A stretch of 64,000 nt of DNA from Margaritispora aquatica. Its lineage: Eukaryota; Ascomycota; Leotiomycetes; Helotiales; Discinellaceae. The DNA lies in assembly GCA_007644065.1 (NCBI GenBank), contig VJWN01000002.1, positions 1,079,831-1,143,830 of the forward strand, read 5' to 3'. Below the pieces are notes generated by a model. The model saw nothing but the letters and a program-made list of their open reading frames with translations, was not told the origin of the DNA and made no database searches. Shown here in pieces: positions 24,662 to 28,259 of this stretch (positions are counted from its first letter, which is position 1; each line of letters opens with the position of its first letter). A program made the translations under genes and the position numbers.

Positions 24662-26092
24662 TCAGCAAGGAACTTCTCTCCTGGTACCGCAAACGCCACA
24701 AAGCCCAACATCTCCTGCATTCAAGTACTTCACACAACTTGAAGATTTGCATCGCCATGAATCTGGAACAAAATCAGGCTTCAACACATTGGCACAGACC
24801 ATACAGGTTAGAGCAAGTTCGTTATTAGCCACTGAGCAAACTGTGCAGCTTTCGATAATTGGCGAATCCTCAATTGAATGGTTATCAAGGGGTTTTCCTG
24901 TGCGTGAAATTCCTGTGCCGGGCGATGCTGACTGGTCTTTGAGCTTGTTTTCGTTGGGTGACTCTGTAGCTAGAGGCAATTGAGTATGTGCTGTTGTAGA
25001 CCCCTCCTTCTTTAATGGCCAGCTATTCAATGAATCAGAGTTTGTAGATTTTTTAGAGGTCTTGTTGGACAGATCCTTCGTCGAACTGGATGTTTGCGAG
25101 GACAGGTACGTCTGCGAATGTCCCGGGACTATGTGAAGATCTAGGAGTTCGTTCTTAGCATTATCATCGTTGTTGTCCTCATCTTCGCAAATTTTCACCA
25201 TGCCTCGCCCATTCCTATCCAAAAGCCTCCTGCCATTTATATCGACGGCATCGTTAGGTTCGGTCTTGATTTTGACATCATCCTCAATGTCACTCTCCGC
25301 TTCGCTATCGGTGACCAGTTCTTCGTCTTTGATTCCAGGCTCCTCCTGCTTGACCTCAAATCTAGCGAGAGCTGCTGCTGCACGAAGCTCGCGTCCACGA
25401 GCACTGCCTGCAACTCGAGGCTTTCCAGAAGGCTTCTTCCCTTTCTCCAGCTTGACTTTGGTTTCCTCGTCCGCACCCAGTGCAACACCATTGGTGCCGA
25501 ATTTCTTTCGGATTCTGCGCTCCTTTTGCTCTTTGTATGTGATCTTTGGCTTCGCTTTCCTCTTGTTGCCACCCTTAGATTTGAATGTTCCGCCACATGT
25601 ATGCTCCGGGATAGGTTCGTTTTCGTCCAGATCATGTGTGAATAGTCCGTTCTCCAGCAAGACCCCGCGACCCCAGAGTCCGTCGCCCGTATAACCTTTT
25701 CCCCACAATACCTTCATCTCGGCCGCAAACTCATTTCGTACAGCCCAGAAAGCTTTCGAGTGATTCATTTGCTTGTTGTGCGCCAGCTCATGCATCATAA
25801 CCATCTGTACGAAGCTGAACGGCAACCAGTTACCGCTTGCAGATTTAAGCACAAGCTGGATAACCTCGCCATTATTGAAGTTGCGACCCAAGAACTCGGT
25901 ATTGTACTCGTATTCTTCCAGAGATACGACAGCAAGATGGTTTTTATTCATGATAGGCAGACATTGTGCTGCAATGCGTTCGAGAAAGTCTTTGCTGGTC
26001 TTCTCATTTAATCCAGGTAACGGTTTGATGAAGACGATATTCTTATTCGGCGTAGTCTGCCGAACATTTATTCTTTCCCAACCGAGAGGCAT
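24662..26092 (-). CDS. WLM-domain metalloprotease, Wss1-like (DNA-protein crosslink repair family)
   Basis: Single exon, about 476 aa from the ATG at 26092 (MPLGWERINVRQ). The frame is open upstream to an ATG at 26212, but that 40-residue extension looks unlike a WLM start. The WLM domain carries the zinc-protease motif HELAHNKQMNH (HExxHxxxxxH) followed by FWAVRNEF. A long acidic Lys/Glu-rich linker follows, then two RanBP2-like zinc-binding Cys clusters at the C terminus (CTVCSVANNELALTCMVC and WRCKSSSC...CGVCG). Yeast Wss1 cleaves proteins crosslinked to DNA and binds SUMO and Cdc48. The domain order supports a Wss1-type enzyme, but the partners are inferred from the family. Confidence 0.85.
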   Translation of the reverse strand: MPLGWERINVRQTTPNKNIVFIKPLPGLNEKTSKDFLERIAAQCLPIMNKNHLAVVSLEEYEYNTEFLGRNFNNGEVIQLVLKSASGNWLPFSFVQMVMMHELAHNKQMNHSKAFWAVRNEFAAEMKVLWGKGYTGDGLWGRGVLLENGLFTHDLDENEPIPEHTCGGTFKSKGGNKRKAKPKITYKEQKERRIRKKFGTNGVALGADEETKVKLEKGKKPSGKPRVAGSARGRELRAAAALARFEVKQEEPGIKDEELVTDSEAESDIEDDVKIKTEPNDAVDINGRRLLDRNGRGMVKICEDEDNNDDNAKNELLDLHIVPGHSQTYLSSQTSSSTKDLSNKTSKKSTNSDSLNSWPLKKEGSTTAHTQLPLATESPNENKLKDQSASPGTGISRTGKPLDNHSIEDSPIIESCTVCSVANNELALTCMVCANVLKPDFVPDSWRCKSSSCVKYLNAGDVGLCGVCGTRREVPC

Positions 26093-26851
26093 TATTCGCG
26101 AAGAAATTTTGAGATTCTTGGAATGATGTTGAATTTGCTCGAGGGTTGAGCTCAATGACGATGCCTGGATCAAAAGGACGCGATGCTGCAGAACCCGCTT
26201 TCGCGCAATCATGTGACAACCCCTACGAGCAGGCGGGAGTTGACTCGAACAAATCTACCTACTGGAGAAATATCATGTTCAACATTATCTGTATATTCCC
26301 TCCCAAACCGCAAATTCAAAGATTTAGGTTGTGCAGTATTTTCATATTTCAGCATTGGAGAATCGCACAACCTAACAAGTGATCCCAATTCTCACTATAG
26401 CCTGTCCAACTACTGACTCTTCCTTCAAGCTCTTTACAGAGCGAATAACAGCTATCAAGTGTTGAGCCCTTATTTTTGGTGAAATTCCCGTGTCAATTTA
26501 ATTTTTAGACCTTTTAGGTATCTTTAGCTTTCGCAGCGATCAACTCTCCTTTTCTTCTACGAAATGCCATAACAACTAGGAGTCACCTTTCTCAGACTAT
26601 CTATCAATTGCTATTGAACTAGCCAACAGGCTTATGGCATATCTACATAAAGTCCGAAAACAAATTTCACAAAGCTCATTAGGCCAGCAGCACTTGAGGT
26701 GCATCGTCCTTCTTTCTTTGATTTCTTTGTTCTGTGAGCATCATTTGCCAAAATCGCCTCTAGCCTTACACAATTCAACGAATTCTCGCTAAGCCTCTAT
26801 ACTCTTCACATCCCCCACATTCTCGGCCCGAGACTGGGAGCCGATGGTATC
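26093..26851. other. Intergenic region, no gene seen
   Basis: Promoter of the WLM protease (-) and downstream flank of the tRNA gene. AT-rich; no coding or RNA signal was recognised. Confidence 0.45.
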
Positions 26852-26869
26852 AAAAAAATCTCCAAAAAA
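26852..26869 (-). terminator. Pol III oligo-T terminators of the tRNA gene
   Basis: On the minus strand a T6 run (26869-26864) and a T7 run (26858-26852) begin about 25 nt after the tRNA discriminator base. This is the expected place for RNA polymerase III termination. Confidence 0.75.
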
Positions 26870-26893: not shown

Positions 26894-27073
26894 TACTCCA
26901 GGTGAGTGTCGAACTCACGACTTTCGCATTTCTCAGAAGAAAGATCATATTAGCCAGCTTGCGCCGGCAAATATAAGAACGACACGCTAACCACTCTAAA
27001 TGTACAACGTTAGCCTCTGATTTTGATCAAAGACAATGACGAAAGGAAGTTTTAACTTACGCGTCACTGGAGT
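26894..27073 (-). tRNA. tRNA-Ile (anticodon UAU) with two introns, one in the D arm
   Basis: Exons (complement) 27073-27061, 26995-26972 and 26929-26894 total 73 nt. The acceptor stem pairs 7/7 (ACTCCAG with CTGGAGT, discriminator A), the D stem 4/4 (ACGC/GCGT) and the T arm 5/5 (GTGAG-TTCGACA-CTCAC). The anticodon stem pairs 4/5, with a U31-U39 mismatch. T8, A14, G15-C48, G18G19, A21, T33 and TTCGA are all in place. The anticodon loop CTTATAA gives UAU. Intron 2 (26971-26930, 42 nt) is at the normal 37/38 position. Intron 1 (27060-26996, 65 nt) splits the D arm between positions 13 and 14 and carries GTAAGT, GCTAAC and TTTAG. It also splits the A box; the B box is intact. T-runs follow downstream. 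A tRNA this well conserved is probably functional, but processing of the first insertion is unproven. Confidence 0.85.
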
Positions 27074-27266
27074 TGTTACAAATGTTTAGAGACGAAATTG
27101 CTTATTTGAATTATTGAATACCACAGCTTTTCGCAGCATCACATGACCTTGAGCTCAACGACCTTGCCTCATGAATTACGCCGAAGTCTTCGAAATATTT
27201 TCTAACACTCATCGTTCATGCAGGAAAGCTAGTAACAACCTAAAATCTTCAAGAAGTGATCATAAT

Positions 27267-28259
27267 ATGGCGAAGATGCCTACACAAGATCCCACCACTG
27301 CCAATGTCGCACCAGAAGATGATGAGGACGACTACATGAACATGATAATCGCCGAACCAGCGCAACCCAAAACCAAAGAAACATACACCCAAAAGCGCAT
27401 GCGTCTGCAGCGCGAAGCCGAAACTCGCGGACGCACAAAATCCAAAGCAGAGCTGCTCGCAGATGAAGCCGCCGCGCGCGAAGCAGCCCTCTCAAGGTCG
27501 CTGTTGGACAACCCCACCAAGAGCAAAGGGCTAGCCATGATGGCGAAGATGGGCTTCAAGCCTGGCGCTGCGCTGGGAAGCAAGGACAATGTTGGGGCCA
27601 GGACGGAACCTATTGGTGTGGAAATGAAGGGCGATAGAGGGGGCATTGGGCTTGATGCGCAGAAGAAGAGGAAGTTTAGAGAGGAGGCTGAGAGGGAGGG
27701 GAAGAGGGTTAAGGCTGAGGAGGGGGAGTATCGGGATCGAGTGAGGCAAGAGAGGGAGGCGGGGAGACTGGAGGGCCTAGTCGCTGGAGCCATGAGGACA
27801 GCAGAGCGGATGGATGAGGAGCGGACAGAGAACTCTGTTAATGATGTAGAAATTGGAGGGGCTACGAAGAAGCGCAAAATCTCCACCAAGCCACTGAAGC
27901 AAATCAATGTCCTCTGGCGCGGACTAGTAAGGAAGCGAGAGGAGAAGGAAAGGGATCGCAGGATGCGGCATGATCTTCAACAAAGCCTCTCCCGGTTGCC
28001 GACATACGAAGACGAGGATGAAGATAAAGACGACAAGCGAGCGTTGGGTAAGGATAGCATCCAGCATACGCTTGTGGAGGATTTGGAGGAGGAAGATCCA
28101 GAGCTTGATGAATTTAATGAGCTTGATCCTGCAGATCGTCTTGAGAAGTTGGTGGCGCATCTCAGAACAGAGTATAACTACTGCTTTTGGTGCAAGTTCA
28201 GATATCCTGACCAGGAGATGGATGGGTGTCCTGGCTTGACAGAGGAAGACCACGATTGA
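27267..28259 (+). CDS. GPATCH11: G-patch domain protein, GPATCH11-like
   Basis: Single exon, 330 aa from the ATG at 27267 (MAKMPTQ). An upstream in-frame ATG at 27171 would add 32 residues and lies only about 100 bp from the tRNA start. After an acidic N terminus and a basic helix comes the G-patch (MMAKMGFKPGAALG...GGIGLD, about residues 90-130). A long charged coiled-coil-like region follows. The C terminus has the conserved CFWCKFRYPDQEMDGCPG segment ending EEDHD, as in the DUF4187 domain of GPATCH11/CCDC75. G-patch proteins usually stimulate DEAH-box RNA helicases; the specific partner is not evident. Confidence 0.88.
   Translation: MAKMPTQDPTTANVAPEDDEDDYMNMIIAEPAQPKTKETYTQKRMRLQREAETRGRTKSKAELLADEAAAREAALSRSLLDNPTKSKGLAMMAKMGFKPGAALGSKDNVGARTEPIGVEMKGDRGGIGLDAQKKRKFREEAEREGKRVKAEEGEYRDRVRQEREAGRLEGLVAGAMRTAERMDEERTENSVNDVEIGGATKKRKISTKPLKQINVLWRGLVRKREEKERDRRMRHDLQQSLSRLPTYEDEDEDKDDKRALGKDSIQHTLVEDLEEEDPELDEFNELDPADRLEKLVAHLRTEYNYCFWCKFRYPDQEMDGCPGLTEEDHD

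Follow-up and report, generated by a model that had tools for sequence, protein, structure and literature searches.

In the textbook account, tRNA splicing does not involve the spliceosome. A 2026 review describes it in the same terms in the sections cited here (PMC13149111), and according to the cited part of a further review the yeast tRNA endonuclease cleaves strictly at position 37/38 (PMC4033280). In the relevant passages of an account of tRNA introns, archaea, Cyanidioschyzon and nucleomorphs are described as having introns in the D arm and at other positions, with several introns per gene; the archaeal and Cyanidioschyzon introns use bulge-helix-bulge (BHB) type motifs, and those of the Guillardia nucleomorph are 3-24 nt long (PMC4090602). 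Spliceosomal introns in RNAs made by other polymerases than Pol II have been described in the fission-yeast U6 snRNA, a Pol III RNA for whose intron an origin by reverse splicing has been proposed (PMC10484740, in the portion cited), and in the nuclear rRNA of lichen fungi, where the introns are ectopic and where, according to the text cited, yeast removed introns of this type from Pol I transcripts (PMC8527467).

The tRNA genes described below share features with all of these systems. As in U6 snRNA and lichen rRNA, introns of spliceosomal type lie in a structural RNA that is not a Pol II product; however, U6 is a spliceosome component and the lichen case concerns Pol I rRNA, whereas here the hosts are tRNA genes and the intron positions vary. 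The inserts, like those of archaea, Cyanidioschyzon and nucleomorphs, occur in the D arm and elsewhere in genes with more than one intron, but we saw no BHB in the one register examined, and they are 48-71 nt long with GT-CTAAY-AG signals. Introns at the canonical eukaryotic position 37/38 are present in all eight genes, and it is the extra insert, located elsewhere, that has the spliceosomal signals. An intron was absent from both U6 matches in this genome, which are 108 and 106 nt long against a model of 105 positions. Our search of the open-access literature (with few subscription papers and no preprints) turned up no description of tRNA genes with spliceosomal introns, and we know of none.

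The gene at the center of this analysis is a tRNA-Ile(UAU) gene of 180 nt with two inserts, read from the sequence at 27073-26894 on the minus strand of the window (the whole 64,000-nt stretch of DNA that was analyzed). Exon 1 (27061..27073, tRNA positions 1-13) is separated from exon 2 (26972..26995, positions 14-37, with anticodon UAU) by a 65-nt spliceosomal-type intron at 13/14 (26996..27060), and exon 2 from exon 3 (26894..26929, positions 38-73) by an ordinary 42-nt tRNA intron at 37/38 (26930..26971), all on the minus strand, as are the features that follow. The 65-nt insert starts with the 5' splice site GTAAGT (27055..27060), contains a branch-site-like CTAAC within GCTAAC (27009..27013, the putative branch A at 27010 being 14 nt from the intron end), and ends with the 3' splice site TTTAG (26996..27000). 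The 42-nt intron is canonical by its position and by the ability of position 32 to pair with intron position -3. When joined, the exons give a 73-mer with a cloverleaf, the anticodon UAU and conserved D- and T-loop bases, in which every stem pairs except at U31-U39 and U30-G40 is a wobble. An uninterrupted B box, GAGTTCGACAC, was identified by eye in the T arm (26906..26916), and a T6 run of the Pol III terminator type lies at 26864..26869. Our re-reading of coordinates, pairing, lengths and motifs agrees with the first-pass annotation of this DNA, which had proposed a three-segment, 73-nt tRNA-Ile(UAU) in which U31-U39 is the sole unpaired position and the 65 nt inserted at 13/14 carry GTAAGT, GCTAAC and TTTAG. 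ARAGORN (bacterial code) and Rfam (gathering score) called no tRNA in the window, a miss that is expected because the D arm is interrupted. The gene is flanked by a WLM-domain protease gene (24662-26254, minus strand), which we take to be Wss1-like, and by a G-patch/DUF4187 gene (27153-28259, plus strand). The window also encodes a PPR protein for which Cadophora (Helotiales, Leotiomycetes) tops the named relatives at 44% identity, the two nearest proteins having 54% and 58% identity; most of the other named matches are presumably also from Leotiomycetes. On this evidence the host is Leotiomycetes-like, and no named organism among these matches is closely related to it.

For genome-wide searches we used the 42.4-Mb assembly of 49 contigs in which the window sits on contig C12. 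A query with exon 2 (≤3 mismatches, whole genome) identified two sites, the window locus and C6:294254-294277, and a query with the T-arm half of the gene at the same tolerance identified the same two Ile sites and no others. The C6 gene is interrupted at the identical point, 13/14, by a 71-nt insert (GTACGT...AACTAACG...ACAG), has its own 37/38 intron as well, and shares the U31-U39 mismatch. The check for other tRNA-Ile(UAU) copies, to which the first-pass annotation had pointed, turned up this one gene, which is likewise interrupted; no insert-free Ile(UAU) gene was found genome-wide with queries from both gene halves at ≤3 mismatches.

Six further tRNA genes carry inserts, at five other positions, giving eight interrupted genes in all. 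Counting bases along the mature sequence, the inserts lie after base 6, in the acceptor stem, in two Gln(UUG) genes (L095 and L106; 48 and 51 nt), after base 12 in a Thr(CGU) gene (L101; 55 nt), after base 16 in an Arg(UCU) gene (L056; 52 nt), after base 17 in an Asp(GUC) gene (L061; 67 nt), and, in the anticodon stem of an Arg(CCU) gene, after base 29 (L048; 49 nt). Together with the second Ile(UAU) copy, these genes support the first-pass reading of the D-arm insert as an intron of spliceosomal type. The eight are among 87 tRNA-like genes recovered in what is an incomplete inventory. Of 1722 candidates in the Rfam tRNA search, 62 were scored, which yielded 61 matches, and all 40 of those outside contig C38, which is taken to be mitochondrial, were read. 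T-arm patterns supplied further sites: GGTTCGANTCC had 99 matches (97 outside C38, all included), GGTTCGANCCC had 48 (44 outside C38, all included), and GGTTCAANTCC had 98 (57 included, 4 on C38 and 37 left out). Sites from these patterns were read further only if they had at least 4 of 5 T-stem pairs. The locus parse yielded 80 tRNA-like rows, consisting of 79 with intact acceptor, D and T arms plus L048, which was misread; among the 79 uninterrupted rows at least L121 and L216 are doubtful. Another Thr(AGU) 5' half, on contig C1, was left out, and several isoacceptors are absent from the parse.

Some loci in this inventory were unusual in other ways. L093 (G000:C13:467929-467939, minus strand) is an orphan 3' half of a tRNA-Thr(AGU) with the T arm and acceptor of L090, preceded by CACTAAC...AAAG, which looks like a branch site followed by an acceptor. 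About 860 nt of upstream sequence showed no 5' half, and L093 is either a fragment or a gene whose intron is long. L032, L044 and L145 are tRNA-like, possibly Met- or Cys-like, and their anticodon-loop introns are long (parsed as 74, 83 and 92 nt, in an ambiguous register).

All eight inserts are GT-AG and 48-71 nt long, and all contain CTAAY with its A located 10-15 nt from the 3' end. The donors are GTAAGT (four genes), GTACGT, GTAAGA, GTAAGC and, in Arg(CCU), a weak GTTAGA. All eight genes also have a 37/38 intron. Among the 67 inserts at 37/38 in the parse that exceed 5 nt (the misread L048 included), only one, 10 nt in length, has GT...AG. Pairwise likeness among the eight introns is 0.71 at most. 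This value belongs to Thr L101 and Arg(UCU) L056, whose introns share TACTAATAAAT...ACAG. In the same window, a 6PGD gene (identified by Pfam) has three introns in the same style, as judged by eye with guidance from the expected protein, and a scan for mRNA-intron signals found 9 versus a Markov mean of 5.0 (maximum 8), a weak contrast, so that we give more weight to the 6PGD introns. The pattern of the Ile D-arm intron had no matches in prokaryote genomes and viral contigs, where fungal sequence is unlikely.

We also asked where each gene would be cut on structure, using an excision score that considers tRNA structure and conserved bases only and is blind to splice signals. The first excision could start anywhere up to 37/38 and be of any length, and the second was fixed at 37/38; the counts given here are of excisions of ≥30 nt that score equal to or above the GT-AG cut, that cut included. 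For the window Ile gene, 2 of 3114 excisions were as good or better, the GT-AG excision being one of the two top scorers, and for the C6 gene there were 3 of 3543. The two Gln genes gave 1 of 2295 and 1 of 2412 and Arg(CCU) gave 1 of 1359, with alternatives within 1 point, while the counts were 16 of 2100 for Arg(UCU), 17 of 1866 for Thr and 28 of 1866 for Asp, the last two being genes in which the GT-AG cut is not the structural optimum. The GT-AG excision was top or level-top in six of the eight genes, and each gene's equal-or-better set contains exactly one GT-AG excision. A chance origin of the window Ile layout is unlikely, since just two of 3114 excisions reach the top score and the C6 gene repeats the layout. 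As the genes were first recognized partly by eye, we left the per-gene counts unmultiplied and claim no joint p-values. Minimum free energy folding was non-discriminating, returning a cloverleaf for 1 of the 8 joined sequences versus 8 of 79 ordinary ones.

Comparison with insert-free relatives bears on the genes in which structure is less decisive. The mature sequence of Asp L061 is identical to those of all five insert-free Asp genes in the parse, so that the insert boundary is fixed to within a one-base shift, and its 9-nt 37/38 intron is identical to that of insert-free L058. In Thr, the best score goes to a non-GT-AG cut shifted by one base; the GT-AG cut leaves 13-22 unpaired, and by eye the Thr genes L034 and L036 are also without that pair. 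The mature Gln sequence has one difference from insert-free Gln(CUG) L086, located in the anticodon, the bodies of L095, L106 and L086 being otherwise identical, and that of Arg(UCU) differs from insert-free L009 at 14 bases. An insert-free Gln(UUG) gene, L102, has a very different sequence (45 differences in an ungapped comparison).

The two pairs of interrupted genes show how exons and inserts have diverged. The mature sequences of the Ile pair are identical at 70 of 73 positions (the differences being at 4, 30 and 60), while their inserts keep the splice signals but are otherwise only 56% alike, against a mean of 49% and a maximum of 58% in 200 shuffles; their 37/38 introns are 51% alike (shuffles: mean 46%, maximum 58%). 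The Gln pair (L095 and L106) has mature sequences identical at 73 of 73 positions, spliceosomal-type inserts 62% alike (shuffles: mean 48%, maximum 61%), and 37/38 introns still 82% alike, so this pair is not saturated throughout and is younger than the Ile pair. Of the two introns of the Gln pair, the extra one has changed faster than the one at 37/38. Because exons are preserved while introns are scrambled, selection appears to act on the spliced product; a dead pair would be expected to lose both.

By these sequence signs, the eight inserts fit U2-type spliceosomal introns, and their removal is what the joined products suggest. We consider it very probable that the 65-nt insert in the window is a genuine spliceosomal (U2-type) intron and that its host, a tRNA-Ile(UAU) gene of Pol III type, belongs to a set of eight or more genes with such introns. 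The involvement of two splicing systems at the Ile locus, which had been raised on first reading, is supported as far as the sequence signals of both introns can indicate it. Pairing of position 32 with intron position -3 is seen for the 37/38 introns of five of the eight interrupted genes as cut, the window Ile gene included.

Which polymerase would transcribe such genes is a related question. The claim that the insert splits the Pol III A box is correct for both Ile genes, which score 7 of 11, and does not extend to the interrupted genes as a group, in which Thr scores 9, Arg(UCU) 10, and Asp and Arg(CCU) 11; 79 ordinary genes scored by the same rule and in the same two registers reach 10 or 11, and the Gln genes have a good A box about 50 nt downstream of the usual place. 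The further suggestion that two polymerases are involved was not upheld, as the B box, terminator and leader resemble those of ordinary tRNA genes. Of the eight interrupted genes, seven have T4 in the 60 nt downstream, Asp L061 being the exception, and six have CAA among the final 14 nt of the leader; for the 71 ordinary genes whose flanks are long enough, the counts are 67 and 50. Transcription by Pol III therefore seems the more likely for the interrupted genes. The tRNAs might instead be spliced out of Pol II transcripts, either long non-coding RNAs or 5'UTRs, with Pol III contributing little or nothing, and the split A boxes of Ile and Thr, the displaced A boxes of the Gln genes, and the location of the Ile locus between the G-patch and WLM-domain genes are in keeping with this. 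We think it unlikely, given the T-run terminators, the ordinary leaders, the uninterrupted T arms, and the full or near-full A boxes of Asp, Arg(UCU) and Arg(CCU). Upstream TATA-like motifs (at -60 to -28) also occur no more often than in ordinary genes (3 of 8 versus 28 of 71, the window Ile gene having none), and TTTT is absent from all eight introns, a weak point in that shuffles give the same result in 10%.

The loci could also be decayed, that is, pseudogenes or silent genes with inert inserts in which GT-AG is coincidental or a relic. The broken A box of the Ile genes and the lack of a nearby T4 in Asp are compatible with decay, and short insertions in the D or T arm of eukaryotic tRNA genes, mostly in one of many synonymous genes, have been supposed to mark pseudogenes in the passage cited, a description that Asp, as one of six synonymous genes, fits (PMC4090602). 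Decay nevertheless appears improbable, more so than a Pol II origin: the Ile and Gln pairs have kept their mature sequences, and the donor, branch and acceptor with them, while the inserts have diverged to about shuffle level, the same signals recur in all eight inserts, and our searches with both halves of the gene (≤3 mismatches) found no insert-free Ile(UAU) gene. Least credible to us is that the inserts are non-canonical introns cut by the tRNA-splicing endonuclease. Introns outside 37/38 are indeed known in archaea, red algae and nucleomorphs, and relaxed hBH/HBh' motifs exist besides the strict motif that we tested for (PMC4090602, as cited above); however, none of the eight junctions has a BHB in the one register used (central helix 0-3 of 4 pairs, inner helix 0-3 of 4), the yeast enzyme is described in the cited section as strictly specific for 37/38 (PMC4033280), and this route gives no reason for GT-CTAAY-AG in eight of eight inserts. 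On the register examined, the archaeal and red-algal endonuclease route does not fit and was rejected. Finally, the inserts might be copies of a mobile introner-like element spreading through the genome. The 71% likeness of the Thr and Arg(UCU) introns favors this, and such elements have reportedly been found in fungi (PMC4457414), but the same likeness arises in 16 of 500 shuffles in which the splice signals are retained, and the Asp intron, the one searched, is single-copy at E 10 (very common words skipped). We regard an introner as very improbable, and return to spliceosomal introns in Pol III-type genes as the preferred reading.

Under the preferred reading, Pol III, with TFIIIC on the B box and, in genes with a broken A box, perhaps with help from upstream sequence, would make a pre-tRNA with two introns. 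A TATA box upstream of the gene is described in the portion cited as conserved in some plants and fungi and as important there for the transcription of tRNAs (PMC3978253); such a box could fix the start site in genes with a displaced A box. In the nucleus, the spliceosome would recognize the short intron by GTAAGT, CTAAC and AG and excise it. This step would come ahead of export and of trimming by RNase P, since there is no D arm (in Gln, no acceptor stem) before it. The tRNA endonuclease and ligase would then take out the 37/38 intron.

The tRNA genes presumably gained these introns, since insert-free Asp paralogs and close insert-free relatives of the Gln and Arg(UCU) genes exist. The gain in Asp looks recent from the sequence, as both the mature sequence and the 37/38 intron equal those of insert-free copies. 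A search of the genome with the 67-nt Asp intron at E 10 (very common words skipped) found no other match, and we saw no donor. Our preferred guess for the route of gain is reverse splicing, perhaps along the lines proposed for U6.

A more far-reaching reading, which we consider more likely than not, is that the spliceosome is obligatory for tRNA maturation in this fungal lineage, with all Ile(UAU) and several other minor isoacceptors passing through the spliceosome and then the endonuclease, and with Pol III genes still gaining introns. Programs that look for a single intron at 37/38 miss such genes, and isoacceptors that seem to be missing from other fungal genomes may be hidden in the same way, which indicates a blind spot of fungal tRNA annotation. 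The Asp gene, apparently interrupted recently and with identical paralogs that lack the insert, offers a way to test how introns are gained, and spliceosomal introns in tRNAs would mean that one more class of genes not transcribed by Pol II has gained introns. They would also connect two splicing systems and tie the decoding of some codons to spliceosome activity.
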